This document shows, piece after piece, positions 45,734-63,948 of a stretch of DNA of 64,000 nt. Position 1 is the stretch's first letter, and each line of letters opens with the position of its first letter. This DNA comes from Pelotomaculum thermopropionicum SI (lineage in GTDB: Bacteria; Bacillota; Desulfotomaculia; Desulfotomaculales; Pelotomaculaceae), in contig AP009389.1 of assembly GCA_000010565.1 (NCBI GenBank), positions 1,488,001-1,552,000 of the forward strand, in the 5' to 3' direction. The notes below the pieces were generated by a model, which worked only from the letters and a program-made list of their open reading frames with translations, had not been told where the DNA came from and did not search any database. The translations under genes were made by a program, and so were the position numbers.

Positions 45734-45850
45734 CTCTTATCCGGAGTGGCGGAGGGACTGGCCCTATGAAGCCCGGCAACCTTTGGGTATATAGGCGTAC
45801 CCAAAAAGGTGCTAATTCCTGCAGGAGATTTATCTTCTGACAGATAAGGG
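45734..45850 (+). promoter_or_regulatory. SAM-I (S-box) riboswitch
   Basis: The S-box consensus is present in order: CTTATC opening P1, GGAGTGGCGGAGGGA, CTGGCCCTATGAAGCCC, GGCAACC, a P3 hairpin (TTTGGGTA...TACCCAAA), GGTGCTAATTCC, and CAGATAAG closing P1. High SAM should stabilise the aptamer and favour the terminator that follows. Confidence 0.96.
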
Positions 45851-45866
45851 AAAAGCAATGTTTGCT

Positions 45867-45900
45867 GGCCTCTTCTGTTTGGAAGAGGCCTTACGTTTAT
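45867..45900 (+). terminator. Terminator of the SAM-I riboswitch
   Basis: GGCCTCTTC (45867-45875) and GAAGAGGCC (45882-45890) form a 9-bp stem followed by TTACGTTTAT. It is the expression platform, 39 bases before the first gene. Confidence 0.75.
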
Positions 45901-45938
45901 CGGAGCGGAAGAGCACAATCAGGGGAGGTATTGCTAGT

Positions 45939-47144
45939 ATGGCCATTGAAAAAACTTATGCAGAGATCAACGAAAAGATTAGATCTGGTAAAGCGGTGGT
46001 AATGACGGCAGAGGAAGTCATCTCTCTGGTGAATGAAAAGGGGTTGACGGAAGCTACCAGACAGGTTGACGTGGTAACCACGGGAACATTCGCCCCGATG
46101 TGTTCTTCCGGAGTTTTCCTGAACTTTGGCCATTCCAAACCCAGGATCAGGATGCAGAAAGTATGGTTAAACGGCGTCCCTGCCTATACCGGCATCGCTG
46201 CGGTAGATGCTTACTTGGGTGCTACAGAACTTCCGGAAGATGACCCTTGCAACAGCAATTACCCGGGCGAATTCCGCTACGGGGGCGGCCACGTAATCCA
46301 GGATCTGGTGGCCCGTAAGCCAATCAAGCTGAAAGCCGTTTCTTACGGCACCGACTGTTACCCGAGGCGTGAAATTGAAACCTATATTACCCTTGACGAC
46401 CTCAATGAAGCAACCCTTTTTAACCCGCGCAATGCTTACCAGAACTACAACTGCGCGGTTAACCTGGGCAACAGGACCGTTTATACCTACATGGGAATGC
46501 TCAAACCAAACCTTGGCAATGCTCACTATTGCAGCGCCGGACAGCTTAGCCCGCTATTAAACGATCCCTATTTTCTAACCATCGGCATCGGCACCAGGAT
46601 CTTCCTGGGGGGAGGAATAGGTTATGTGGCCTGGCACGGCACCCAGCATTTCCCGGGCATTCTTAAGGACGGCGAGGGAAATAGTTACGGCCCGTCCGGG
46701 GGTACTCTGGCAGTAATCGGGGATCTTAAACAAATGAAACCCAACTGGCTGGTCGGAACAAGTTTCCTGGGCTATGGTGCCACCCTTACTGTAGGCATCG
46801 GCATTCCCATCCCGATCCTTAACGAGGAAGTAATGCGCTGCGTTTCTGTTAGCGACCGGGAACTGTATGCTCCTATTGTCGATTACAGTGAAGCTTATGG
46901 CCAGCGCATTCCCGGCAACCTGGGATACGTCAGCTACGCTGAACTGAAATCCGGCAAGATTATTGTTAACGGAAAGGAAGTGCCAACGGCTCCCCTGTCC
47001 AGTTATCCCAAGGCCAGGGAGATTGCAGGCATATTAAAAAGCTGGATTCAAAAGGGCGAATTTCTTCTTACCGAACCGGTGAAGCTGCTTCCTTCTTATA
47101 AGGACGGGATTGCGGCAAAGTCGCTGGAGATCAAGGGGATTTAA
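45939..47144 (+). CDS. DUF39/COG1900 homocysteine biosynthesis protein
   Basis: 401 residues. COG1900 proteins are required in methanogens and other anaerobes for making homocysteine from aspartate semialdehyde and a sulfur donor, without O-acylhomoserine. The two Cys expected for sulfur chemistry are seen in TGTFAPMCSSGVFLNFGH (~57) and SYGTDCYPRREIE (~136). ATG 45939 follows GGGGAGG; the frame extends back into the terminator and is not used there. Control by a SAM riboswitch agrees with a role in methionine synthesis. Confidence 0.9.
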   Translation: MAIEKTYAEINEKIRSGKAVVMTAEEVISLVNEKGLTEATRQVDVVTTGTFAPMCSSGVFLNFGHSKPRIRMQKVWLNGVPAYTGIAAVDAYLGATELPEDDPCNSNYPGEFRYGGGHVIQDLVARKPIKLKAVSYGTDCYPRREIETYITLDDLNEATLFNPRNAYQNYNCAVNLGNRTVYTYMGMLKPNLGNAHYCSAGQLSPLLNDPYFLTIGIGTRIFLGGGIGYVAWHGTQHFPGILKDGEGNSYGPSGGTLAVIGDLKQMKPNWLVGTSFLGYGATLTVGIGIPIPILNEEVMRCVSVSDRELYAPIVDYSEAYGQRIPGNLGYVSYAELKSGKIIVNGKEVPTAPLSSYPKAREIAGILKSWIQKGEFLLTEPVKLLPSYKDGIAAKSLEIKGI

Positions 47145-47203
47145 AAGGCAAATGGAGTTTATCCCAAAAAGGAACCGTCCCCCCAGGAAAAGGAGTGAAA
47201 TCC

Positions 47204-47605
47204 ATGTCACCCAAAAAAATAATCCTGCGCTTTGACAAAGATATATCTGATAAGCCCATCATCTACCGCCTGGCCAAGGACTACGATCTGGTCATCAACA
47301 TCATTAAGGCCAATGTCAACCCGAATAAAGAAGGCACGATGGTTTTAGAACTGACCGGAGAAAAATACGACCAGGGATTGGAGTTTTTAAAAAACCAGGG
47401 GGTCAGAGTGCAGCCCCTGGCGGAAGAAGTGTTCAGAAACGAGGAAAAGTGCACCAGTTGTGGCGCCTGCACGGGCATTTGCCCCTCCGGCGCGCTGTAC
47501 ATTGAAAGGCCTTCAATGGAGGTCAAATTTGATAGCGATAACTGCATTGTCTGCCAGATCTGCGTCAAAGTATGCCCGGTAAAAGCCATGGAGGTCAGGT
47601 TTTAG
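47204..47605 (+). CDS. NIL domain protein with two [4Fe-4S] clusters (homocysteine biosynthesis)
   Basis: 133 residues. An N-terminal NIL domain (~1-75), known from methionine-transport ATPases, then two ferredoxin motifs: CTSCGACTGICPSG and CIVCQICVKVCPVKA. It is the usual partner of COG1900 proteins and probably supplies electrons for sulfur transfer. ATG 47204 has AAGGAG upstream; the in-frame GTG 47195 is within that site. Confidence 0.9.
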   Translation: MSPKKIILRFDKDISDKPIIYRLAKDYDLVINIIKANVNPNKEGTMVLELTGEKYDQGLEFLKNQGVRVQPLAEEVFRNEEKCTSCGACTGICPSGALYIERPSMEVKFDSDNCIVCQICVKVCPVKAMEVRF

Positions 47606-48349
47606 TTGGAATACAAGGAGAGGACGTACCGCCGGTTATTCCGCCAGGACGATTTGATTCACTTTCAGGTGGTGGTGCAGCAGACCGACCTTGACATTGG
47701 GGTGCGCCGGGAAAGGTTTTCTCCTGAACTCGTCCGCTGGGTGGAGGAAATGGTACGGAAGCAGCGGGCCCTCCTGGAAAAATACATCGAAGAGGACCCG
47801 CAATTCCTGCATTCTCTTGTCCCCTGCCCGTTAAAACCCACTGCTCCGCCTATAGCGGTGGACATGGCTAAAGCGGCCAGCCTGGCCGGCGTGGGACCGA
47901 TGGCCGCCGTGGCCGGCGCCTTCGCCCAGCACATCGGCCGGGCGCTGGCCAGGCGGTCGAGAGATGTTATTGTGGAAAACGGCGGCGACATTTATATGCG
48001 CAGCGCCGTAAAGCGCAGGATTGGTATCTTTGCCGGCAGGTCCCCCCTGTCGAACCGGATTGCCCTGGAAGTCAGGCCTGAAGATACTCCGCTGGGGATA
48101 TGCACCTCTTCCGGAACCGTCGGACCATCCCTCAGCTTTGGCAACGCCGACGCCGCGGTAATCCTTTCCCCCTCCGCTACTCTGGCCGATGCGGTAGCTA
48201 CTGCCGCCGCCAACCTGGTTAAAAGTAAGGAGGACATTCAAAGAGCGGCCGAATTTGCAACCGGCATCGAGGGAATAACCGGCGCGGTGGTCATCAAGGA
48301 CGACCACCTGGCCGCCTGCGGAAAGCTGAAGCTCGTACCCGTGGCTTAA
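47606..48349 (+). CDS. UPF0280/COG2122 family protein (homocysteine biosynthesis)
   Basis: 247 residues with VDMAKAASLAGVGPMAAVAGAFAQ and DVIVENGGDIYMR, the ApbE-like/UPF0280 signature. COG2122 genes occur with COG1900 and NIL-ferredoxin genes and take part in anaerobic homocysteine synthesis; the exact step is not known to me. TTG start immediately follows the previous stop, with GGAGG upstream. Last gene of the S-box operon. Confidence 0.88.
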   Translation: MEYKERTYRRLFRQDDLIHFQVVVQQTDLDIGVRRERFSPELVRWVEEMVRKQRALLEKYIEEDPQFLHSLVPCPLKPTAPPIAVDMAKAASLAGVGPMAAVAGAFAQHIGRALARRSRDVIVENGGDIYMRSAVKRRIGIFAGRSPLSNRIALEVRPEDTPLGICTSSGTVGPSLSFGNADAAVILSPSATLADAVATAAANLVKSKEDIQRAAEFATGIEGITGAVVIKDDHLAACGKLKLVPVA

Positions 48350-48400: not shown

Positions 48401-49102
48401 TTACCTGACTTTTCGCACCGCTGCCACGCCGACCGCAAAAAAAACTGCGGCGTAAACGACCAGTACTGCCAGAGAGAGTGGCTGTATTCCGTGGCCGGAG
48501 GCAATGGCCCGCAATAAATAACTGGCGTGGGTCAAGGGAAGGACTTCAATAATATATACAAAAACTTTCGGCAAGCGGTCCGGCGAAAAGAAGGTACCGC
48601 ACAAAAAAGACATGGGCAAAAGTACAAACGTAAAGAAACTGGCCATGTCTTCGTGGGAATTGACGACCATTGCGGCCAGTGCTCCCAAAGCGCCAAAAAG
48701 AAAACAAGTGAGCAGGACCACCAGATAAAACCAGCAGTTCACCACCAGCTGCGCTCCGAACAAAAAGGCCAGCCCCAGGATGATCAGGGAAGCGATCAAT
48801 CCGCGCACGCAGCCGGCCAGCACTTTGCCCAGCACAAAGGCACCGGTGCTGAGCGGGGCAATCAGGTATTCGTCCAGGGTCTTGTGATAGAGCCGGCTTA
48901 TGTGGAGGTTATTGCCCACCGCGCTGAAACTGGTATTCATGGCACTTAAGGCGATAATCCCGGGTACGATGAATTCAAGGTAACTGATGCCATTTATTTG
49001 GATATTCCGCCCCACCCCCCAGCCGAAAGCCACCAGGTAGAGCAGGGGGCCGACCAGGCAGGAGGCGAAAAATTTCCCGAAGGCCCGTCTTAAAACTATC
49101 AT
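48401..49102 (-). CDS. ABC-2 type transporter permease
   Basis: 233 residues, six hydrophobic segments, with FIVPGIIALSAMNTSFSAVGNNL and FLCGTFFSPDRLPKVF as in NodJ/DrrB permeases. The frame is open for about 11 more codons upstream (DFYTVFWRE before MIVLRRAFGKF), residues typical of the family's N-terminus, but no ATG/GTG/TTG starts them. The true start may therefore be a rare codon. It follows the ATPase gene directly. Confidence 0.85.
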   Translation of the reverse strand: MIVLRRAFGKFFASCLVGPLLYLVAFGWGVGRNIQINGISYLEFIVPGIIALSAMNTSFSAVGNNLHISRLYHKTLDEYLIAPLSTGAFVLGKVLAGCVRGLIASLIILGLAFLFGAQLVVNCWFYLVVLLTCFLFGALGALAAMVVNSHEDMASFFTFVLLPMSFLCGTFFSPDRLPKVFVYIIEVLPLTHASYLLRAIASGHGIQPLSLAVLVVYAAVFFAVGVAAVRKVR

Positions 49103-49134
49103 TTCCCGCCAGAAAACAGTGTAGAAGTCAATCT

Positions 49135-49974
49135 TTAATCACCTACCTTGCGCCCGGTCAGTTCCACGTATACATCTTCTAAATTGGCTTCCCGGATCAC
49201 CACATTTTCTGTATGACTCCCGGCATATTCCAGGGCCTGTTCACGGTTGGCAAAAAACCGGTATTCTGTACCGCTGCGGCTGAATGCCTCAACAACTACC
49301 TCTCCTGCTCTTTTCTTCAACTCTGCCGGCGTGCCCAGGGCAATCAACCGGCCACGGTCCATAATGCCGACCCGGTGACAGAGCACCTCGGCCTCCTCAA
49401 TATAATGGGTGGTCAGCAGGACGGTCATGCCTTCGCTGTTCATTCTCCTAATTAAATCCCAGATTTTGCGCCGTGTCTGGGGATCAAGCCCGGCCGTCGG
49501 CTCGTCCAGGAACAATACGCTGGGGTAGTGCATTAAAGCACGGGCAATCATCAGCCGGCGCTTCATGCCGCCTGAAAATTTGCCCGCCAGGTCATGGGCC
49601 CGGTCGGCCAATTCCACATAGGCGAGGAGTTCCTGGATTCTTTGCTGCCGCTGGAACCGGGGCATTTTATGCAACCGCCCGTGCAGTTCAAGGTTTTCCC
49701 GTGCCGTGAGCTCCTCATCCAGGTTCATGTGCTGGGGAACCACGCCGATCTCCTTCTTGATTTTGCTAAAATCACGGTTTATCTCATACCCGTTGATTAA
49801 CGCGGTCCCACTGGAGGGCCTGGTGAGCATGGTCAGCATCCTGATAGTCGTGGTCTTACCGGCTCCGTTCGGTCCCAGCAGGCCGAAAATCTCTCCCCGG
49901 TTAATCTTTAAATCAAGGCCAGTCACAGCTTGAATATTGCCGTACTGTTTGGATAACTGCCTTAGTTCGATCAT
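49135..49974 (-). CDS. ABC-2 type transporter ATPase (NodI/DrrA-like)
   Basis: 279 residues from ATG 49974 (GAGGTG upstream; a longer frame to 50025 has no site). Walker A GLLGPNGAGKTTTIRML, signature FSGGMKRRLMIARAL, Walker B VLFLDEPTAGLD, H loop TTHYIEEAE. A C-terminal domain of ~60 residues follows. Pairs with the permease. It begins 59 bases after cbiZ on the same strand and may belong to the corrinoid operon. Confidence 0.92.
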   Translation of the reverse strand: MIELRQLSKQYGNIQAVTGLDLKINRGEIFGLLGPNGAGKTTTIRMLTMLTRPSSGTALINGYEINRDFSKIKKEIGVVPQHMNLDEELTARENLELHGRLHKMPRFQRQQRIQELLAYVELADRAHDLAGKFSGGMKRRLMIARALMHYPSVLFLDEPTAGLDPQTRRKIWDLIRRMNSEGMTVLLTTHYIEEAEVLCHRVGIMDRGRLIALGTPAELKKRAGEVVVEAFSRSGTEYRFFANREQALEYAGSHTENVVIREANLEDVYVELTGRKVGD

Positions 49975-50033
49975 TTGTCCGGCACCTCTTAAACTTGACT
50001 GATTAACCATCCAGCGGCTCACCACTCAATATC

Positions 50034-50777
50034 TCAATTTAACAATACACCGCCTGCAGGCCTTTCAAGCTTGTCAGGGCCGGTCGCGGCAAGATAGTCA
50101 CTGATGCCCTGCGCCACCGCCCTGTATACAGTGCGGCCTACCAGATAGCCCAGGTCGGTGGCAGATCCAGCGTATGGCAGGGGTTTTCCCCTTCCGGTAC
50201 AGGCGATGACAATGGCATCGGTAGTGGTTCCTGTAGCCATGGCGCCGTCCGGCAGGCGGATGCCGGCCTGAAACACCGCCCTGGTCTTGGCCTCTGTAGC
50301 TGTGATTACAGCATTGACCATTGCGGCTTCGGTCAGATTGCCGTCGATAAGAACCACTGTATTAATCGTCCCCGGCGCAGCCACGCTTTCACTCACAGCA
50401 GTAAGGCTCCCGGCCGAACAGGCGTTGCTCACTCCGGCAGTGCAGACTGTAGCAACCGCCAGGTCTTGTCTTGTGCCGAAGCTCATCACTGTACGCCTGA
50501 CATCCACGGCCGTCATTAAGCCCAAAACATCTTTACCAAGGTTCATCCTTTCCGCCAGGCGGGCAAGGTCCTCCGCCGGGGACTCGCTGCTGTATGTTTC
50601 TTCAACGGTGTGGTTCATAATAAACCTGGCCCGCCGCCGCTCACCACCCAGCACGGCGGAACTCAGGACCTTTAATAATTGCCGGGAAGCTATTAGAAAG
50701 GTTTTATTCTCGACCAGATAAAAGCTGATTCCCTTGATTGGGACATTCATGTTAAAAGCAGTAAGCTCTTCAAACAA
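50034..50777 (-). CDS. cbiZ: Adenosylcobinamide amidohydrolase CbiZ
   Basis: 247 residues. CbiZ cleaves the amide between the corrin ring and the nucleotide loop, letting salvaged corrinoids be rebuilt with the cell's own lower ligand. Family motifs: MTAVDVRRTVMSFG (~88-100), CTAGVSNACSAG, GTINTVVLIDGNLTEAAMVNA and the C-terminal ATGTTTDAIVIACTG. TTG start with GGAGTGAG upstream. Downstream of a B12-regulated ECF transporter, it fits a salvage and remodelling role. Confidence 0.93.
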   Translation of the reverse strand: MFEELTAFNMNVPIKGISFYLVENKTFLIASRQLLKVLSSAVLGGERRRARFIMNHTVEETYSSESPAEDLARLAERMNLGKDVLGLMTAVDVRRTVMSFGTRQDLAVATVCTAGVSNACSAGSLTAVSESVAAPGTINTVVLIDGNLTEAAMVNAVITATEAKTRAVFQAGIRLPDGAMATGTTTDAIVIACTGRGKPLPYAGSATDLGYLVGRTVYRAVAQGISDYLAATGPDKLERPAGGVLLN

Positions 50778-50855: not shown

Positions 50856-51611
50856 TTATTTAGTACCCAGATCCTGGGCTGGCAGGTAACTGACTTCCAG
50901 CTTTTTTTTAGTCCTTTTCAAAATTTTCACCACCCCTGTGCCGCAAAAGAAGTAAAAAAATACGTTGCCCAGGGCGTGACAGGTGTCAAACCAAAAGCTG
51001 GCGGCATAGGTAGTCAAAAAAGACTGCCAGTTAAGAGGATAAATAAAAGCCGTCCAAAACCACAAATTCATTATCCAGCCATAGATGTAGCCCCAGGTGA
51101 ACAGGAAGGCCGCCATGCCCCACCGCCCTACCTGGGGGAAAACGGCACCGAAAAGGGCCGCTGAAGATCCGGCCAGCCCCCAGGTGAACATCTGCCAGGG
51201 CGTCCACGGCCCCTGGCCGAGAAAAAAGTTGGATACAATCGCAGCGGTCGATCCGACCATAAATCCTCCCCGCGCCCCAAAAACGTAACCGGTAATAATT
51301 GTCAAAAAGGTTACGGGCTGGATGTTAAACAGTGCGGCAAAGGGCACTCTGCCTACAGCTGCCACTGTCCCCAGCACCGCAATGACAGCGATCTCCCTGG
51401 AGGAAATAGCGCTTCTCTCAAATCCCCAGTATAAAAATACAATGGCAATGAAGACTATTTCTGCTGAAAGAAGGCCCCAGTTCTGCCTGGCCAACGGGCT
51501 CCCGGGACTGATCGACATGGCCAGCAACCCGGCCACGGCCAAAAGAAAAAGAGGGAATTTCAATTTAAAAAGATAGTCCGGCAAACCAGCCACTTCCTTT
51601 ACCCACAACAT
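50856..51611 (-). CDS. ECF transporter substrate-binding (S) component, probably for corrinoids
   Basis: 251 residues, six to seven hydrophobic segments with short loops, including EIAVIAVLGTVAAVGRVPFAALFNIQP (residues ~72-98; key part AAVGRVPF) typical of S components. Position beside EcfT, the double ATPase and cbiZ, under a cobalamin riboswitch, points to a B12 or corrinoid substrate, similar to CbrT systems. The assignment of substrate is from context. ATG follows the ATPase stop directly; an internal TTG with AAGGAAG upstream is the alternative. Confidence 0.82.
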   Translation of the reverse strand: MLWVKEVAGLPDYLFKLKFPLFLLAVAGLLAMSISPGSPLARQNWGLLSAEIVFIAIVFLYWGFERSAISSREIAVIAVLGTVAAVGRVPFAALFNIQPVTFLTIITGYVFGARGGFMVGSTAAIVSNFFLGQGPWTPWQMFTWGLAGSSAALFGAVFPQVGRWGMAAFLFTWGYIYGWIMNLWFWTAFIYPLNWQSFLTTYAASFWFDTCHALGNVFFYFFCGTGVVKILKRTKKKLEVSYLPAQDLGTK

Positions 51612-53307
51612 TTATCTCTGCCGGCTGCTTGCCACCTGGGCAGGAAAAAACCACAGTTTTTCCACCGCTTCCTGCAAGGTAAGCACATGAGTGTCAATGT
51701 CCCGGAACAACCTGCAAATTTGCGGGGCGTAAAACATGGAGCTGGCCAGAACAGCGTGCTTCGGGCCTTCGCAGGCAACCTGCCCGTCGAAAAGCATTAC
51801 CACGCGCCCGGCATATTCAGCCGCAAATTCCACATCGTGGGTTACCAGAACTACGGCAACCCCCTCCAGGGTAATTTCCTGCAGCAGCTTTCCTAGCCCG
51901 GCCTTCAGCCGGTAGTCAATGCCACGCGTCGGCTCGTCCAGCACCAGAAGCTTCGGGCACGCCACCAGTACCGAAGCCAGTGCCACCCGCTGCCTTTCCC
52001 CGCTGCTCAAGTCCCGCGGGTTGACATGCCGGCAGCGTGCCAGGCCCAGCTTCTCCAGCAGCCGTTCTACCCTGCCGCCATCAGGCAGGCCCAGGTTGGC
52101 CAGGGTAAATTTTAACTCCTCCTCCACCGTATCTTGAAAAAGGTAATCGTTTGGGTTTTGGGAAAGGTAGCCCACCAGGCCGGCTAATTGCCGAGGCGCA
52201 GTCCTTCCAGTATCATTCCCCATTATCAGCACCTTGCCGCGCCCGGGCTTTAAAAGCCCGGCCAGGTGCTTCAGCAGGGTAGTCTTGCCGGCAGCGTTTT
52301 CTCCCAGCACAGCTACGAATTCACCGGCGTTAACCGTTAAATTTATGCCCCGCAATGCCTCGCGGCCATTGGGGTAGGTAAACCACAGGTTCTTAACTTC
52401 AACTACCGGCTTTCCTCCTGTCGCCCCTTCAGGTTCTTTCTGTCTGCCTGAATGTGGGGCTAATCCCCTGTCTTCAGGGGAAAAGAAATATTTTTTCAAC
52501 AGCTTGCGCCCTTCTTTCACGGTGAGCGGTATTGCCGGAAAGTCGAGGTGGGCAAATAGCGCGGCCACCGGCGGAACAAAGGGCAGCCCTTTTTTTACCT
52601 GCCATGCGGCTACCTCGCCTGGCGGCCCTTCCCGCACGATTTGGCCGCCCTCCATCACCGCTACCCGGTCGGCCAGGTGAAAACACCGCTCCAGGCGCTG
52701 TTCTATTAAGACAATGGTCAGGTTCATCTCCTCGTTCAGCCGCTTGACCAGGTTGAGAATTTCCTCTGCAGCTGCCGGGTCCAACTGGGACGTTGGTTCG
52801 TCCAGGATCAATACACGCGGCTGCATGGCCAGGACCGAGGCCAGGGCCAGCTTTTGCTTCTGCCCGCCGGACAGGCTGGCAGTAAACTCCTTTTTAAGCG
52901 AGGAAAGGCCCAAAAAACTCATAACCTCGGCCACCCGGCGAAACATTTCCAGCCGAGACAAACCCAGGTTTTCCAGACCGAAGGCTACCTCCGCCTCAAC
53001 CCCGGTCATGACCAGCTGCTTCTCCGGGTCCTGAAAAACAATCCCCACCTCTCTGGCCAGGTTTCGCCTGTCCAGAGCGCGGATGTCTCTTCCTTTAAAG
53101 AAGACCTTGCCTCCAATCCTGCCTCCATAAAAATCTGGAATCAAACCAACCAACCAGGGCGCGGGCAAGGGAGGACTTGCCTGAGCCAGAGCCGCCGCTC
53201 ACCAGCAAAAACTCGCCTTCAAAAACAGTGAGGTCGATGTCCAGCAGAGCCGGCCGTTCTGATTCAGGATAATAATAAGTTAGATTTTGGACCTTAAATA
53301 CTGACAA
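51612..53307 (-). pseudogene. Double ECF ATPase, frameshifted by a 4-base repeat expansion
   Basis: Fused EcfA-EcfA' ATPase. The first ~50 residues, from a TTG at 53307, end with Walker A GGSGSGKSSLARALVG in one frame. The other 518 residues, from PAPWLVGLIPDFYGG, are in another frame. The break lies exactly at AACC x3 (53144-53155). With two copies the frame reads ARALVGLIPDFYGG, the normal family sequence, giving 563 residues. The remaining motifs are intact: SLSGGQKQKLALASVL, LDEPTSQLD, and in the second half GENAAGKTTLLKHL, LSSGERQRVALASVL, LDEPTRGID. Full activity needs Walker A joined to the rest, so this allele is probably off. Confidence 0.85.
53144..53155. repeat. (AACC)3 tetranucleotide repeat causing a frameshift
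   Basis: Three tandem AACC units (GGTT on the coding strand). Removing one restores the ATPase reading frame, which indicates slipped-strand duplication or a sequence error. Confidence 0.9.
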
Positions 53308-54209
53308 CGCTGCCACCCCCAACTCAGTCCAGCAGGCAGGGACAGCCCGCCCAGAACGGCAGCCAGGACAGTTACGGTGGCGCTGCCGTCGAAAAGGTAT
53401 CCCAACTGCGGATAATAGGTATAGGTTCCAAAACCATGTATTATGCCGTAAATCGCAACGATCAGGGAAAAAATGCTGCCGGCCAGGCACAGTCCGTCCC
53501 GTGGCCGGAAAAACTCCCGCCGGTAGCACGAACGGGGCCCGCTGCCGAAAGCGCGCGCCTGCATTGCCTCGGCCATCTGCAAAGAGCCTTCCAGCGACGA
53601 GACCAGCAGAATGTTAAACAAGGAAGCATATTTGCCGGCCCGCTCTTTTAATGTCCCTGCCTGAAAATCTACCCCTCTGAGCTGCTGCATTTCCCTGATG
53701 CTGCTCATAGAGGCGGTCATTACCGGAAACAATCTAGTGGCCAGTGAAACAACCAGGGCAGACTTGTAGGCAAAGCGGGAAAACAGGTTCAACAGCCGGT
53801 CCGGGTGGACAGTGAGGTTATAGAGGCAGAAAATGCTGATCATGTCCAAAAGCCGTACCCCCATGGCGGCCCCGTAACAGATTGCTTCCAGGGTAATGGT
53901 CAGCCGGCCCAGGACCGGCAGGTACGGCCCGTGCCAGAGCACGGTCTGCCCCGCCCGGACCACCAGGGGGTTGATTACCATGACCAGGAATACCATCCAC
54001 AAAGCAATTTTAAGATAACCTTCCCAGACCGCAATCCCGTCTGCCGCCCAGATAGCCAATGCAGTCACGATGAAGATTCCTGCAAGGTAAACGGGATGGG
54101 AGAAGGCAAGGGCCAGCACAAGCAGCACCGCTATATAACAAAGCGCCACGGCAGAGTGCAGGCTTTGGAGAAACAGCCCCTTTTCCTGATAAAAGAATTG
54201 TTGCAACAT
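53280..54209 (-). CDS. ecfT: ECF transporter transmembrane component EcfT
   Basis: 309 residues, hydrophobic N-terminal half (about four to five helices), then the cytoplasmic coupling helices with EMQQLRGVDF (~173) and MAEAMQARAFG (~217), the two ARG-type motifs that contact the ATPases, and C-terminal helices. It is the scaffold that tilts the S component. The 3' end overlaps the ATPase start by ~28 bases. Confidence 0.88.
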   Translation of the reverse strand: MLQQFFYQEKGLFLQSLHSAVALCYIAVLLVLALAFSHPVYLAGIFIVTALAIWAADGIAVWEGYLKIALWMVFLVMVINPLVVRAGQTVLWHGPYLPVLGRLTITLEAICYGAAMGVRLLDMISIFCLYNLTVHPDRLLNLFSRFAYKSALVVSLATRLFPVMTASMSSIREMQQLRGVDFQAGTLKERAGKYASLFNILLVSSLEGSLQMAEAMQARAFGSGPRSCYRREFFRPRDGLCLAGSIFSLIVAIYGIIHGFGTYTYYPQLGYLFDGSATVTVLAAVLGGLSLPAGLSWGWQRCQYLRSKI

Positions 54210-54284: not shown

Positions 54285-55685
54285 CTACTTGCAGATGATC
54301 ACTGTCCGCTCTTTTTCATCCCAACTTACTGCATAACCAAAAGCCTGGGCCACATAGCGGGCAGGCAGGTAGGTACGGCCGGGAGGCAGCAGCAGCGGAG
54401 TCACGTCCATCGTTACCGGTTGGCCATTGACATACAAGATGTTTCCCCCCACGGTCAGGGTGACCGTAATGCCGTTATTTGCCAGGGTTACAGTTTGGGT
54501 AGAAGGCGACCATTCGATCCCGCTTTCCGGCACGCCGAGGGCCAGGGCCAGGTAGCGCACCGGTACAAAAGTGCGGCCGTTCTCCAGGAAAGGCGCTGCG
54601 TCCGCCTCCCTAACCTGCTTCTCCCCTTCGATGCTTACCTCATAATTTTTCTCGCCCAATTTAAACCGGATTGCCCGCTGAGGCTGTACCTTCCCTGTAG
54701 CAGCGGAACCAGCCGGATTTTTCTCCCTCAGCCGTTCAAAGACCGTTTTTCCGTAATATACGTCCGCCAGGGCCTGCAGCGCCTGTTCCGTGGCCATTTC
54801 ATTGCTCCCTGTGCCTTTTATGTGCTCAAAAGACCCGTCCGGCAGCTGGTAGCTCTGAAGCGCTGTGACCGGATTGCCGCCGGGCTTAGTCCAGTCTGCT
54901 CCGGCCGGGTCGATCCCTACCGCAATCAGCCCTGAAATGACCATGTGGCACGATTCCGGATTCGGAGCGCCCCAGGAGGAAAAGCCGCCGTCTTCTTCCT
55001 GGACCCTCTTCAGGTAGGCAGCTGCCTTTTGCACAACGGGGCTGTCATTCTTTTCACCCAGGGCGCCGAGGGCCATCAGCGCCATACCGGTGGAGTCGAC
55101 ATCGGGCTTCTGGTCCGCCAAGATCCAGTTAAAGCTGCCGTCTTCGTGCTGCTGGTCAATGAGCCACTGCCTGGCCTTTTGGGCATCCGGTATCTCAGCC
55201 CCGGCTGCATAAAGGGCCAGCACGGCCCAAATATGTGCATTGACCAGAACCTGCCCACCCTTTTCGCCCATCCCGCTGCCGTCAACATTATCGGCAAACT
55301 TGCCGTCGGAAAGCTGGGCTGCACGGATCCTCTCCACCAGGTTTTGCCCCTGGTAATCGTACGGACTCTGCCCGGCAGCCAGTAAAGTAAGCACCAGCAG
55401 GCTGTAACCGTTCAGCTCGCTGGACTGCAATTCGGCAAACTGCTTCCGGCATGACTCCTGCACCCTGGTGCCGGTAAGGTCCTGCCCGCAGCCGGCCAGG
55501 GCCACATAGCTCCACGGTGTCAGCGGACGCCCCTGTGTTCTTTCCTGCATCAGCAAATAACCGGCAGCCCGTTCCATGGCCGGCCCGGCACCGGCCGCCG
55601 GCAACGCCCGGACCGTTACGGGAGAACTGAGAAAAACAATCATTGCCATAAAAAATAAAACAAAAACCTTTTCCGCTATCCGCAT
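54285..55685 (-). CDS. Secreted transcobalamin-barrel-like protein with Cu-amine-oxidase-N domain
   Basis: 466 residues from ATG 55685, with AAGGAG upstream inside a longer frame. Signal peptide ~1-28 (MRIAEKVFVLFFMAMIVFLS). Residues ~35-320 hold prenyltransferase/squalene-oxidase-type repeats such as DGSFNWILADQKPDVDSTGM and EEDGGFSSWGAPNPES. They form an alpha/alpha barrel like the alpha domain of transcobalamin. Residues ~345-466 hold copper-amine-oxidase-N repeats (ENGRTFVPVRYLALALG; LPPGRTYLPARYVAQAFG), commonly used for wall association in clostridia. Corrinoid binding is inferred from domains and operon. Confidence 0.8.
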   Translation of the reverse strand: MRIAEKVFVLFFMAMIVFLSSPVTVRALPAAGAGPAMERAAGYLLMQERTQGRPLTPWSYVALAGCGQDLTGTRVQESCRKQFAELQSSELNGYSLLVLTLLAAGQSPYDYQGQNLVERIRAAQLSDGKFADNVDGSGMGEKGGQVLVNAHIWAVLALYAAGAEIPDAQKARQWLIDQQHEDGSFNWILADQKPDVDSTGMALMALGALGEKNDSPVVQKAAAYLKRVQEEDGGFSSWGAPNPESCHMVISGLIAVGIDPAGADWTKPGGNPVTALQSYQLPDGSFEHIKGTGSNEMATEQALQALADVYYGKTVFERLREKNPAGSAATGKVQPQRAIRFKLGEKNYEVSIEGEKQVREADAAPFLENGRTFVPVRYLALALGVPESGIEWSPSTQTVTLANNGITVTLTVGGNILYVNGQPVTMDVTPLLLPPGRTYLPARYVAQAFGYAVSWDEKERTVIICK

Positions 55686-55724
55686 TGCCTCTGACTCCTT
55701 CCTCATAATTTTTGCTGCCGTAAA

Positions 55725-56405
55725 TTAATTATTTCTTACCAGTCCCTCCCAGGTGGGCGGCGGTGTGTCCATGCTCTTGCTGTACCACCAGATCACCTTG
55801 TCACCTGATGCCACCGGTTTCTTGTCGGCGGCAACCATGGGGATTTCCTCGTTTACTTTATACATCCAGCCCGCCTGTCCTTTATTGCGCTGCCCGGCTA
55901 CAGCCTCGACAAAGCCGGCAAAGCCGGCAGATATATTGTAAGGCAAGCCCGTAGCGTCCAGGGCGCCCAGGGCCGTTGCACCCCACCTGCCCTTTTCTTT
56001 TAACTGCACGGCCGCCGGCCCGAAGAGGAGTTCTCCGTCCTTTCCCACCACCGCAACATTGACCGTAACCGCATCACTGCCCGGAGCGGACGGCAGATCA
56101 GGAGAATAGCTTTTACCGGAAACACGAGAAAAACCAGGACCGTTTAAACCATCTCCCTCTTTCCGGGCTGCACTGACAGGAGGCATTTCAGAGGAAGGCT
56201 GCGCTGAAGCTCCTGTTTCCGTAGCAACGCTGCCGCTGGTATTGCCAGAAGAAGAATTCCCGCCAGCGTTTGATTGAGCTGCAATTTCGCTGGACGCAGC
56301 CGGAGGAGCATTGCTTTTGTTAATCTTTTTTGTATAAATTGCCGGGCCCAGCAAACCGAGTAAAAGAAAGAGAGCGGGGATAATAAAAAGAATTTTTCTT
56401 TTCAT
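55725..56405 (-). CDS. Secreted DUF4430 protein
   Basis: 226 residues. Signal or membrane-anchor segment ~4-24 (ILFIIPALFLLLGLLGPAI), a low-complexity Ser/Gly/Ala linker (~30-110), then a DUF4430 domain (~112-226) with GRWGATALGALDATGLPYN and GWMYKVNEEIPMVAADKKPV, ending in GDKVIWWYS. DUF4430 corresponds to the small beta domain of transcobalamin/intrinsic factor, which closes over bound cobalamin. It may complement the barrel-only protein next door. ATG follows AAAAGGAG. Confidence 0.85.
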   Translation of the reverse strand: MKRKILFIIPALFLLLGLLGPAIYTKKINKSNAPPAASSEIAAQSNAGGNSSSGNTSGSVATETGASAQPSSEMPPVSAARKEGDGLNGPGFSRVSGKSYSPDLPSAPGSDAVTVNVAVVGKDGELLFGPAAVQLKEKGRWGATALGALDATGLPYNISAGFAGFVEAVAGQRNKGQAGWMYKVNEEIPMVAADKKPVASGDKVIWWYSKSMDTPPPTWEGLVRNN

Positions 56406-60280: not shown

Positions 60281-60348
60281 AAAGGTTTTGAACCTTTTTG
60301 TAAACGCGACTTTTAGCCCTGGCCTTTCCACGGAAGGCGGTACTAAAG

Positions 60349-60600
60349 CTACCAGGCAGGTCTCCTGACTTGTGGATCACAGCGTATCCCCCGCCTTCCC
60401 ATCCTGCACTCAACGGCACTTCACAACAACCTTTCAAACCAGCTGCCTCAGGCAAAATTTCAGGCGCCTTCGACAGCCGGGATGCCGTTGAGAATCGGAC
60501 AGTGGCATCCTGGGAGCCGCTCCCCACTTACAGTGGCCGGACCGTCCGGGATTTTCACCCGGTTCCCTTTTCACCCCCGGTAAAACCGGGAGAACCTGGT
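60349..60600 (-). promoter_or_regulatory. Cobalamin (AdoCbl) riboswitch
   Basis: On the minus strand, in order: GGTTTTACCGGGGGTGAAAA then GGGAA, GGTGAAAATCCCGGACGG, GCCACTGTAAGT, a variable arm, GGGAAGGCGGGG, and the B12 box AAGTCAGGAGACCTGCCTGG (60352-60371). Length and order match the class-I cobalamin aptamer. It should shut off the downstream corrinoid genes when B12 is plentiful. Confidence 0.96.
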
Positions 60601-60618
60601 AAATATTATTTTGCATTA

Positions 60619-60675: not shown

Positions 60676-61284
60676 TTACCACCCGCGGGTGTAACTGCCG
60701 GCACACGGCATGCAAACAATTTTGCCGCCTTTTACTCTCGCCCTGGGCTCCATCACAGGCTCGCCGCATTCAGCGCAGAGGTGGGAGTCGAAAATGCGCG
60801 CTTTGGATGGCAGCTCTATGGTGACATGCTGTATTGTACAGAAATCATCCTCCGGCATGTCAAGAATAAAACGGGTGCGAGCGCTCTGGTGCCTTTGAAA
60901 AACCTCTTTTTCCTCCTCAGAAGCGGTACCGCCAAAAACCCTTTTCCTGACCTCCTTCATTTCCTGGTCATTGCTCCAGGCTGAACCTTTTACGGCAATC
61001 CGCACCGCCCGTCCGCTCTCGCGGCAGGCAAAGGTGTAGACCTGCTTGCCGTAGTCGCGGTAGATCAGGTTCCCTTTGCCTAAGGTGCAGCCGGTGAGAA
61101 CCTGGACTGCATCTACCCCGCAGGCGTCGTTTTCCACTATTGCTACCAGTTCCTCGTCTTGCGAGCGGATTGACTCCAGCTCTCTCAAGGCTATCCTGGC
61201 CACCCGGAAGCCGGTTGCCAGTCCTGGGCAGGAATGGCCGTGGAATTCCACCGCCCTTTCCCAGTCAGAATTTTTCATGCTCAT
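60676..61284 (-). CDS. fmdE: FmdE-family protein with C-terminal zinc ribbon
   Basis: 202 residues. EFHGHSCPGLATGFRVARIAL (residues ~13-33; core HGHSCPG) is the FmdE signature, with ENDACGVDAVQVLTGCTLGK following. The C-terminus has CAECGEPVMEP and VCMPCAGSY, a four-Cys zinc ribbon. FmdE was named from the molybdenum formylmethanofuran dehydrogenase operon; its biochemical role is not settled. It is next to a dipeptide/nickel-type ABC transporter and directly upstream of the B12-regulated operon, so metal or cofactor handling is plausible. Confidence 0.88.
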   Translation of the reverse strand: MSMKNSDWERAVEFHGHSCPGLATGFRVARIALRELESIRSQDEELVAIVENDACGVDAVQVLTGCTLGKGNLIYRDYGKQVYTFACRESGRAVRIAVKGSAWSNDQEMKEVRKRVFGGTASEEEKEVFQRHQSARTRFILDMPEDDFCTIQHVTIELPSKARIFDSHLCAECGEPVMEPRARVKGGKIVCMPCAGSYTRGW

Positions 61285-61316
61285 AAATTATCACTGCCTT
61301 TCTTTATCTTTTTCTT

Positions 61317-63107
61317 CTAGCGGTTGGCGAAGGAGCAACCGTATGATTCTTCCTGCAGCCGGGTATTAACCAACGATTTTCCCGCCTCGCAAGGCTCATC
61401 CAAAAATATTTTATCCAGGCAGCTGTGCCTGTTTTTCCCCAGATTTTCAGGCAAACTTAAAAGGGAAGGCGCTGAACTCAACAAGCTCTTCGTATAGGGG
61501 TGCAGCGGTTTATTTAAAACTTCACTGACTGGCCCTTCTTCAACAATACGCCCTTTAAGCATGACGGCCAACCGGTCGCTGACCTTTCTGGCCAGGGCTA
61601 TGTCATGGGTAATCAAAAGCATGGCCAGGCCTCTTTTTTCCTGTAAATTCAACAGAAGTTTTAAAATCTTGGCCTGAACGCTGGCATCCAGGGCTGAAGT
61701 GGGCTCGTCAGCAATCAGCACTTTTGGGTCCATCACCAGAGCCCTGGCTATGGCCACCCTCTGCACCTCGCCCCCGCTTAAATGGTGAGGGTATTTATGC
61801 AGGAAACCGTCGTCGTTTGGAAGCTCAACTTCCTCCAAAACGCGCCGCACTTTTGCCAGCCTTTCTTCTTTGCTGCCCAAGCTGTTCACATCCAGGGGCT
61901 CCCTTACCGCCTCCAGGACATTCATCCGGTGGCTCAGAGACTCCCCGGGGTTTTGAAAGATCATCTGCACCTGCCTGTAAAAGCCATTTTCCCCCAGGCG
62001 GTATTTCCCGCTATCAAAGAATACCTCCCCTTTATCAGGCTTGTAAAGTCCCATTATTGTCCTGGCCAGGGTTGTTTTGCCGGAACCGCTTTCGCCGACC
62101 AGAGCTAAAGTTTCCCCCTCATAGAGGCTTAAGTCAACTTCCCTGACAGCTTTTACCGAACCAAAAGATTTGCAGAGTTTCCTCACTACCAGCAGAGGCA
62201 CTATGCCTCCGCGATGGCAGGCAACCAGGCGGTCACCATTCTTTATAGGCACCGGTACTTCGCTGGCACAAATTTCTATGCTCTGGGTGCAGCGCGGGTG
62301 AAAGGAGCAGCCAAAAACCCCGTGAGACATCTGGCCGGGTATGCCCTGCAGGTCCTTAACTGTAGTCATATTAGGATAAGAGCGCAACAGGCCCCGTGTA
62401 TACGGGTGGCGCGGGCTGGCCAGTAAATCCTCCGTACAGCCGTATTCCACGATCCGGCCGCCGTACAGTACTGCCATTTTATCCGCCAGCATGGCGGCAG
62501 CAGAAATATCGTGGGTGATTACCAGTACAACCCTATCACCGGCTATTTCTTTAATCAGGGCAATAATCTCCAATTTTGTTATTGAATCCAGCGAAGCTGT
62601 AGGCTCATCGAGGATCAAAACCTCTGGGTTATTGGCAAGCGCCATAGCAATAAGCGCTCTCTGTTTTTCTCCACCGCTCAACTGGTGAGGATAGGCTTCT
62701 GCCCTGCGCTCATCAAGACCTACTGAAATCAACAGGTCTTTTGCCCTCCGGCCAGCCTTATCCCTATCCAAATAACCGTGAACTAAAATAGACTCTACAA
62801 CCTGGTCATAAACGTTATACAGTGGATGCAGGGCGCCTTCAACATTTTGAAAAACCATGGCGACTTCCCTGCCCCGCATCCGGCGACGTTCCTCTTCAGA
62901 AGATGCCAGAATGTTCCTGCCCTTAAAAATAATCTCACCCGTACACCTGCCTTCTGAAAGCCCCAGAACAGAAAGCCCCAGGGTAGTTTTGCCGGCACCC
63001 GACTCTCCGGTAATAGCCAAAATTTCTCCTTTGGGCAGGCACAAATTAACATCCACAAGAACCGGCACTCCGTTATAAGACACTGCCAAATTTTTAATCT
63101 CTAGCAT
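61317..63107 (-). CDS. Dipeptide/nickel-type ABC transporter, fused double ATPase (DppD-DppF)
   Basis: 596 residues with two complete ATPase domains. First: Walker A ITGESGAGKTTLGLS (~34), signature LSGGEKQRALIAMAL, Walker B LILDEPTASLD, and the oligopeptide-ABC C-terminal CSFHPRCTQS. Second: LVGESGSGKTTLARTI (~335), [26 protein letters not shown]. Usually these are separate genes. Substrate could be peptides, nickel or another metal chelate. The start overlaps the permease stop by 14 bases. Confidence 0.92.
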   Translation of the reverse strand: MLEIKNLAVSYNGVPVLVDVNLCLPKGEILAITGESGAGKTTLGLSVLGLSEGRCTGEIIFKGRNILASSEEERRRMRGREVAMVFQNVEGALHPLYNVYDQVVESILVHGYLDRDKAGRRAKDLLISVGLDERRAEAYPHQLSGGEKQRALIAMALANNPEVLILDEPTASLDSITKLEIIALIKEIAGDRVVLVITHDISAAAMLADKMAVLYGGRIVEYGCTEDLLASPRHPYTRGLLRSYPNMTTVKDLQGIPGQMSHGVFGCSFHPRCTQSIEICASEVPVPIKNGDRLVACHRGGIVPLLVVRKLCKSFGSVKAVREVDLSLYEGETLALVGESGSGKTTLARTIMGLYKPDKGEVFFDSGKYRLGENGFYRQVQMIFQNPGESLSHRMNVLEAVREPLDVNSLGSKEERLAKVRRVLEEVELPNDDGFLHKYPHHLSGGEVQRVAIARALVMDPKVLIADEPTSALDASVQAKILKLLLNLQEKRGLAMLLITHDIALARKVSDRLAVMLKGRIVEEGPVSEVLNKPLHPYTKSLLSSAPSLLSLPENLGKNRHSCLDKIFLDEPCEAGKSLVNTRLQEESYGCSFANR

Positions 63108-63948
63108 AACCAGCCTCTTTTCGTAAACGAGGATTTAAAGCAGTCTCCAGGGCAAAACCAGTAAAAGCAAAACCCATTATGGTCAGTGACAGGGCAATTC
63201 CTGCAGGCAAAAGCCACCACTTCCATACCTCAAGATAGGTGAATTTCAAAGCCTGCTGAATCATCTTGCCCCAACTGATTAAAGAAGGGTCACAGACCCC
63301 CAAAAAGGAAAGGCCCGCTTCCATAAAGATAGCCCGGCGCGCATCCTGGATCAACAAGGCAACCAGGACGGGCCCGAGATCGGGTATAATATGGCAGCGA
63401 AGCAAATGCTTCAAACCAGCGCCAAAGGTGCGGGACGCGGCTACAGACATTTTTTCCTTTAAAGAAAGCACCTGCGCCCTGACCACTCTTGCTCCTCCAG
63501 GCCACAAAAAGGCAGAAATCAAAAAGATCAGAAGAAAAAGGTTCGGCCGCAGGTAAGACGCTACCAGGACCGCAACAATAACCGGGGGGACAACAATTAG
63601 CACATCTACCAGCCGCATCCAGAACCGCTCATAAAACCCTCCTAAAAGGGCTGCTGTACCGCCCACCAAAACGCTGAATAAAACAGACAAAAGCGCCACC
63701 CCGCACCCTACGGCGAGGGAGGTACGGGCACCAAAAAGAAGTCTTGTCCAGACATCCTGCCCCACATCGTCAGTACCCAGCCAGTGCTGAAGTGACGGTG
63801 GGCTGAAGGCAGCACCGGTGTAGGCACAAGGTTCGGAATAGCCCAAAAGGGGAGCCATGACTGCCACGGCCGTTATTAAAAACAGAAGCGCCAGGCCGGC
63901 CCGGCCGGTATTGTTCTTTTTAACCTCCTGCCAGTAATTAACGTGCAT
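63094..63948 (-). CDS. Dipeptide/nickel-type ABC transporter permease (DppC-like)
   Basis: 284 residues, six hydrophobic segments. The N-terminal OppC-type helix is followed by HWLGTDDVGQDVWTRLLFGARTSL (residues ~52-75; core GTDDVGQD), the family hallmark. The EAA loop reads EAGLSFLGVCDPSLISWGKM. ATG 63948 overlaps the preceding permease stop by three-frame offset of 11 bases. Confidence 0.92.
   Translation of the reverse strand: MHVNYWQEVKKNNTGRAGLALLFLITAVAVMAPLLGYSEPCAYTGAAFSPPSLQHWLGTDDVGQDVWTRLLFGARTSLAVGCGVALLSVLFSVLVGGTAALLGGFYERFWMRLVDVLIVVPPVIVAVLVASYLRPNLFLLIFLISAFLWPGGARVVRAQVLSLKEKMSVAASRTFGAGLKHLLRCHIIPDLGPVLVALLIQDARRAIFMEAGLSFLGVCDPSLISWGKMIQQALKFTYLEVWKWWLLPAGIALSLTIMGFAFTGFALETALNPRLRKEAGYARD

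Follow-up and report, generated by a model that had tools for sequence, protein, structure and literature searches.

A candidate corrinoid uptake operon of Pelotomaculum thermopropionicum SI with fused and separate alpha/alpha-barrel and DUF4430 domains

Organisation of the operon

The stretch of Pelotomaculum thermopropionicum SI analysed here (the window: 64,000 nucleotides, contig AP009389.1, positions 1,488,001 to 1,552,000) contains an operon that combines a CbrT-family energy-coupling factor (ECF) transporter with three genes for putative surface proteins. The first of the three encodes a fused protein with an alpha/alpha barrel (toroid) and a DUF4430 domain; the second encodes a DUF4430-only protein and the third a barrel-only protein (Table 1). 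All three genes run in the same direction, with gaps of 83 and 18 bases. A preliminary description of this DNA had placed the two shorter open reading frames (ORFs) exactly where they are found, as neighbours in an operon that opens with the fused version. It took them for a split pair, which might form a second corrinoid binder or a relay from the cell surface to the membrane S component.

Table 1. Features of the operon, in window positions
Feature	Position	Strand	Evidence or remark
Cobalamin riboswitch ahead of fused gene	60338..60614	-	RF00174, 121.6 bits, full length 1-189
Fused surface corrinoid-binder candidate, 1179 aa	56489..60028	-	Pfam toroid + DUF4430 + three SLH
DUF4430-only protein, CbrS-like, 226 aa	55725..56405	-	PF14478; gene 2 of operon
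Barrel-only protein, 473 aa	54285..55706	-	Signal-peptide-like N terminus, alpha/alpha toroid, Cu_amine_oxidN1
EcfT-type transmembrane coupling protein	53280..54209	-	PF02361 CbiQ
Fused EcfA-EcfA ATPase (EcfAA), main part	51612..53168	-	Pfam, NCBIfam
ECF S component, CbrT (vitamin B12) family	50856..51611	-	Profile match to 6fnp_A
CbiZ, adenosylcobinamide amidohydrolase (corrinoid remodelling)	50034..50777	-	PF01955, 198.7 bits

This neighbourhood is not a product of chance, since across the order the fused gene and EcfT again have a DUF4430-only gene beside them. The cobalamin riboswitch is likewise present in 13 of the 16 related loci searched (eight of nine in one set and five of seven in another).

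The S component falls just short of its Pfam cut-off (30.3 versus 30.7 bits). A profile (A6) built from 32 S components of related operons has a single match at E<=10 in an hmmsearch of PDB sequences, 6fnp_A (E 2.7e-23). This entry is titled just 'Membrane protein' in the table of matches; we take it to be the ECF-CbrT structure. ECF-CbrT of Lactobacillus delbrueckii has a crystal structure and carries out ATP-driven import of cobalamin and cobinamide, according to the accessible text of PMC5997447. A corrinoid is the likely substrate here because the operon has a CbrT-family S component, a riboswitch and CbiZ; judged by gene content, the transporter is likely to take up corrinoid.

A search of the P. 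thermopropionicum genome for BtuF-type proteins with PF01497 gave 0 matches. The genome encodes CbiM, CbiD, CbiL and other corrin-synthesis genes, a CobT-type gene (DBI_PRT) and methylmalonyl-CoA mutase; riboswitches precede both the cobalt-uptake/corrin-synthesis group and the CobT-type gene. The operon seems to add salvage to corrinoid synthesis.

Fold of the fused protein

Pfam places a toroid, a DUF4430 domain (residues 699-762) and three SLH domains, in that order, in the fused protein. Cu_amine_oxidN1 replaces SLH in four other fused proteins (L068, L069, L072 and L091); this swapped position suggests that both are surface-anchoring modules. The sequence profile of the fused protein did not list transcobalamin among PDB sequences at E<=1, and a comparison of folds was therefore needed. 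PF01122 (Cobalamin_bind) has no match at E<=0.01 in the window's three proteins; it matches the barrel-only protein of one relative (L042) with E 0.0034, under the cut-off.

Residues 40-790 were modelled from a 29-row alignment, with a predicted local distance difference test (pLDDT) score of 90.9 and a predicted template modelling (pTM) score of 0.81. In a Foldseek search of the PDB with this model, ranks 1-11 (E 1.0e-8 to 3.6e-7) are all transcobalamin or haptocorrin. Intrinsic factor is found at ranks 23 and 28; rank 50 is the human transcobalamin beta domain in its apo form (5no0; 110 columns, 3.8 A). VIA-align gives the carriers Z scores of about 19.6-20.8 over 327-357 residues; single-barrel cyclases are close (best Z 22.1) and agree with the model to about 3 A over 260 residues. 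The domain order of the transcobalamin family, an alpha/alpha barrel followed by DUF4430 in one chain, is found in the fused protein only; each of the split proteins has one domain. An alignment of single- and double-barrel relatives (A4) and the matched ranges suggest that an extra complete toroid is inserted in the barrel of the fused protein, after its first helices. Many relatives' fused proteins have instead one barrel and an immunoglobulin-like stretch ahead of DUF4430.

The DUF4430-only gene accompanies the transporter

The DUF4430-only protein contains PF14478 at residues 142-210 (62.8 bits; cut-off 23.8); it also has an N-terminal hydrophobic segment without a lipobox and a low-complexity linker of about 80 residues. 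Its profile has no match to PDB sequences at E<=10. In the order, PF14478 is present in 49 of 85 genomes. Neighbourhoods were fetched for genomes of the order, plus named records (77 loci); counts refer to 92 non-redundant DUF4430-only genes from the window and loci L035-L160, with loci above L160 excluded, genes that share their last 90 residues counted once, and L108 contributing two rows. EcfT lies in the same run as 82 of the 92 genes, and the fused gene is directly upstream of 68 of these 82. A simple test of the N termini finds a lipobox in 24 copies and a hydrophobic segment in 67, while the last copy is cut by a contig end. From its sequence, the N terminus looks lipidated or membrane-anchored.

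The same association is seen in Bacilli. At E<=1e-10, 120 of the 398 Bacilli genomes searched match a CbrT-family profile; 40 of the 120 loci were fetched, picked for a spread of scores rather than at random. A DUF4430-only gene is present in 38 of the 40, at most three genes from the S gene, and in 28 of the fetched loci it is directly beside S or EcfT. The S gene is called in 39 loci: L207 has neither an S nor a DUF4430-only call, and L221 has no DUF4430-only gene. DUF4430 was confirmed in all five of the Bacilli-locus proteins that were scanned with Pfam, and 26 of the 38 DUF4430-only copies have a lipobox.

In 21 of the 40 loci there is no barrel gene. In 14 of these 21 genomes no ORF matches the barrel at E<=0.001. 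Six have only weak, partial matches, with E 6e-9 to 6e-4, and the ORFs concerned are 615-649 aa long, which would fit squalene-hopene cyclases; one (G222) has a fused gene elsewhere in the genome. It follows from the barrel-less genomes that the DUF4430-only protein accompanies CbrT even where no barrel partner exists.

The published L. delbrueckii cluster is nrdJ-cbrS-cbrT-pduO (accessible text of PMC5997447). The gene order in L229, which is DUF4430, CbrT and cobalamin adenosyltransferase (Cob_adeno_trans), fits the cbrS-cbrT-pduO part of this cluster. The DUF4430-only protein is thus very likely CbrS, an identification in which the published cbrS is assigned to DUF4430 by gene order.

The preliminary description had proposed a relay to the membrane S component, and a DUF4430-only step between a surface binder and that component is favoured here. 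A lipobox or hydrophobic N terminus is present in 91 of 92 copies, the gene adjoins EcfT or the S gene, and it accompanies the S component even without a barrel. Lone domains can be relics, and barrel-only genes arose repeatedly; it could thus be argued that the separate genes are functionless leftovers of duplication and domain loss. This is very improbable: the domain columns are strongly conserved in both the DUF4430-only and the barrel-only proteins, and the DUF4430-only gene persists beside CbrT in two groups, the window's order and Bacilli. Solo and fused DUF4430 domains also fall mostly apart on a poorly resolved tree (178 rows, 109 columns), which needs 7 changes against 59 when labels are shuffled.

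Other forms of DUF4430 protein occur as well. A second, long DUF4430-only type (350-480 aa, e.g. L045:8488-9660) often has a lipobox and continues for about 190 residues past the domain; Pfam shows nothing in these residues of the L045 protein. Each of the genomes G012, G018 and G027 has seven or eight DUF4430 matches, some of which sit in frames of 1500-3954 aa, apart from the usual pair. Two Archaeoglobales records (L161 and L162) contain archaeal loci with adjacent long DUF4430 proteins.

The barrel-only gene is optional and has several origins

The barrel-only protein has toroid matches over about residues 89-293 (PF13243, PF00432 and PF13249) and PF07833 Cu_amine_oxidN1 at residues 365-471 (119.3 bits); Pfam gives one such domain. 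By sequence its barrel matches the squalene-hopene-cyclase/prenyltransferase toroid families, and what it shares with the transcobalamin alpha domain is the fold. Modelling of the first 340 residues yields a toroid, for which the best VIA Z (24.5) is to squalene-hopene cyclase. Anchors of barrel-only proteins vary, being Cu_amine_oxidN1, SLH or none; in nine barrel-only proteins without SLH or Cu_amine_oxidN1, Pfam finds toroid-type families and no anchor domain.

The fused gene and the S gene are both visible in 63 operons of the order. A barrel-only gene is present in 43 of these and absent from 20. The gene directly downstream of DUF4430-only is barrel-only in 15 and EcfT in 46. In two loci (L042 and L149) a fused and a barrel-only gene are found, with no called DUF4430-only gene.

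A quick tree of 136 barrels has two large branches: 82 rows group with the window's fused barrel and 54 with its barrel-only barrel (support 99). The 54-row branch also includes 13 fused barrels of other families, while 17 of 19 upstream-placed barrel-only genes are in the 82-row branch. Five position labels need 10 changes on this tree (minimum 4; shuffled mean 54). These branches and label changes show that barrel-only genes did not arise just once.

These results do not support a common origin of the two neighbours as halves of one thing. Barrel-only is absent from 20 of the 63 operons that keep DUF4430-only, barrel-only genes have several origins, and the window's barrel-only and fused barrels are in different branches. 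This separation, and strongly conserved positions of the barrel-only protein's own (NAHIWA, DVDxT and ESC), are what would be expected if the protein bound other corrinoids (cobinamide or other cobamides) or another ligand alone, with the DUF4430-only protein serving just CbrT and the fused protein. We consider such a division of labour unlikely, since the barrel-only gene shares operon and riboswitch with the fused gene and fused barrels of other families make up 13 of the 54 rows in its branch.

Separate chains and their possible contact

Fused and separate forms were found together in related genomes, a co-occurrence that the preliminary description had suggested looking for. In several Bacilli the domains occur as separate chains. 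The genomes G351, G242 and G310 contain a single DUF4430 match apiece, in a frame of 311-327 aa with no called barrel, and a barrel-only gene (E 1.3e-38 to 3.6e-67) in the same CbrT operon. At four further loci (L206, L208, L209 and L210, in genomes G190, G212, G266 and G201) the fused gene is missing and DUF4430-SLH, DUF4430-only and barrel-SLH genes are present, with Pfam applied to L206 only; their genomes have two DUF4430 matches each. In Bacilli with separate chains the two domains, if they cooperate at all, must act in trans, which is the best evidence for the split pair first proposed.

The strongest form of this idea is a stable two-chain transcobalamin, in which barrel-only and DUF4430-only proteins clamp one corrinoid and make a second binder beside the fused protein. 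It would suit the three genomes that have a single unfused DUF4430 and one strong barrel gene in one CbrT operon, and the four with DUF4430-SLH, DUF4430-only and barrel-SLH; the nine scanned barrel-only proteins that lack an anchor could be held by such a partner. Against it, DUF4430-only is kept without a barrel-only gene in 20 of 63 operons, and in Bacilli it occurs without a strong barrel match in 20 of the 24 genomes searched. EcfT follows DUF4430-only whether or not a barrel gene intervenes, and barrel-only genes are found at several positions and in several branches.

Nor does a model of the pair show docking. The window's two split genes are in frame, with TAA and six codons between them, and were modelled as one read-through chain of 466 aa, with unpaired alignment rows, no ligand and the domain order reversed with respect to the fused protein. 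Both parts are well folded (mean pLDDT 90.8; residues 143-161 under 50). The pTM of 0.70 does not tell docking from no docking, and the fused control, with a pTM of 0.81, does not decide the matter either; by a rough estimate, 0.70 is about what a well-placed barrel and an unplaced small domain would give. Fold matches cover residues 161-463, which is the barrel alone, and transcobalamin appears at Foldseek rank 45 (2v3n, E 2.0e-5). In the alignment used (A1), the last 5-8 residues of the DUF4430 rows are misplaced in barrel columns; two realignments (A2 and A3) looked worse and were dropped. Read-through fusion as a biological event was rejected, as the gaps in relatives (e.g. 162, 39, 40, 32, 63, 61, 74 and 134 bases) are not consistently in frame.

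Overall, a stable two-chain binder is a minority possibility. The claim of a split pair stands in so far as separate chains without a fused form exist in three Bacilli genomes; it is not supported for two halves by origin, nor does it describe the general rule. A dedicated split pair could exist, and probably does in a few Bacilli.

Genes flanking the operon

Just upstream of the cobalamin riboswitch, on the same strand, is an Opp-type ATP-binding cassette (ABC) transporter with an FmdE/zinc-finger protein (60676-63948, - strand). CbiZ is followed by an ABC exporter-like gene pair (48401-50025, - strand); similar pairs adjoin the operon in several relatives (e.g. L083 and L085). Further on, an S-adenosylmethionine (SAM) riboswitch (93 bits) precedes a 428-aa gene and a small ferredoxin-like gene (45734-48349, + strand); the 428-aa gene presumably belongs to the homocysteine biosynthesis family.

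Proposed role of the operon

On balance, the operon probably serves riboswitch-controlled corrinoid uptake and remodelling, with the DUF4430-only protein handing corrinoid to CbrT and the barrel proteins capturing it. Gene content, the riboswitch, membership of the CbrT family, the similarity in fold of the fused protein to the carriers, the constancy of DUF4430-only beside CbrT and the optional nature of the barrels are observed. Surface proteins with a transcobalamin-like barrel, both fused and barrel-only, would trap corrinoids at the cell surface. The DUF4430-only protein would correspond to the transcobalamin beta domain, tethered at the membrane's external side by its N terminus and its long flexible linker. 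As a loading partner it would accept corrinoid from a barrel, or from solution where there are no barrels, and present it to CbrT; EcfT and EcfAA would power import. CbiZ could then act on foreign cobamides by cutting their nucleotide loop. The barrel-only protein would be an optional capture module, able to meet the DUF4430 domain in trans.

Several points weigh against this proposal. Cobalt-uptake and corrin-ring synthesis genes are present in the genome, so uptake is not strictly needed. Over the order, DUF4430 and BtuF are not anticorrelated (PF01497 is found in 38 of 49 DUF4430 genomes and in 21 of the 36 others). The fused model differs from transcobalamin by a large root-mean-square deviation (about 7 A over 327-357 residues), which suggests that the modelled domains are placed otherwise than in ligand-bound carriers. 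In ecfAA the reading frame breaks at a short tandem repeat, just past the sequence for the first Walker A motif (frames 53529-53095 and 53168-51612). Most related loci have EcfAA as a single intact ORF, about 530-660 aa long. This strain may lack a working importer, or a base call may be wrong; sequencing error, mutation and slippage are indistinguishable here. ECF-CbrT is active in proteoliposomes and, with the ECF module, in E. coli; cbrS appears once in the accessible text of that report, in the gene order (PMC5997447). A DUF4430 loading partner may well be dispensable for ECF-CbrT. Finally, we infer, rather than observe, corrinoid binding by each protein, the hand-over, the direction of the relay, contact between separate chains and transport itself.

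ECF transporters are, to our knowledge, usually described as importers that lack an extracellular binding protein. If the proposed role is correct, a DUF4430 protein found with one S-component family in both lactobacilli-like Bacilli and the window's order would be its extracellular partner, and a corrinoid importer could be named for Gram-positive anaerobes. A bacterial counterpart of the human B12 carriers that occurs naturally in one-chain and two-chain forms would also make the order of events in the origin of the fold testable. One rather doubtful scenario is that the fold began as two proteins: DUF4430 would be the ancestral loading subunit, outside the cell, of CbrT-type B12 importers, to which barrels were later added for corrinoid capture, at first in trans and then fused, and the animal carriers would descend from such a fusion. 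Were this true, the window's operon would keep all three states: fused binder, lone beta domain and lone barrel.

Relation to earlier work

A 2018 paper on Desulfotomaculum kuznetsovii states, in its accessible text, that genes for vitamin B12 transport were not found (PMC5770442). The operon is present in four records named Desulfofundulus or Desulfotomaculum (L103, L104, L107 and L117); D. kuznetsovii itself was not identified among the loci. The accessible text of PMC9963975 reports a DUF4430 protein beside rtpR in L. rhamnosus; a table in the same source separately lists an 'Additional lipoprotein component of putative cobalamin ECF transporter'. This annotation presumably denotes the DUF4430-only family, and the DUF4430-CbrT association has probably been noticed already at the level of annotation. 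The phrase 'cobalamin ECF transporter' does not occur in the main text of PMC10117117. The system was not found described in the accessible DUF4430 literature; most subscription papers, including the 2009 ECF survey of Rodionov et al., lay outside the search, so earlier notice is possible. The transporter family and the carrier fold are known; their combination, and the splitting of the fold, are unexpected.

Comparison with known systems

The fused protein resembles transcobalamin, intrinsic factor and haptocorrin in having, within a single chain, an alpha/alpha barrel and, after it, a DUF4430-type beta domain. Unlike these carriers, the window's version is bacterial and SLH-anchored, has an apparent extra inserted toroid and is also split into separate chains. 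The DUF4430-only protein resembles CbrS, or the 'additional lipoprotein component', in being a lone protein beside CbrT; it differs in its long linker, its N-terminal segment without a lipobox and its barrel-protein neighbours. With ECF-CbrT of L. delbrueckii the operon shares a CbrT-family S component and genes for EcfT and EcfA proteins; in contrast, it has a dedicated EcfT, a fused EcfAA and added genes for candidate surface binders. The surface B12-binding proteins BtuG and BtuH of Bacteroides (subjects of PMC6143338 and PMC8941943), set beside the operon by description, are likewise accessory proteins for surface capture of cobamides ahead of an importer; they belong to other organisms and serve another transporter.

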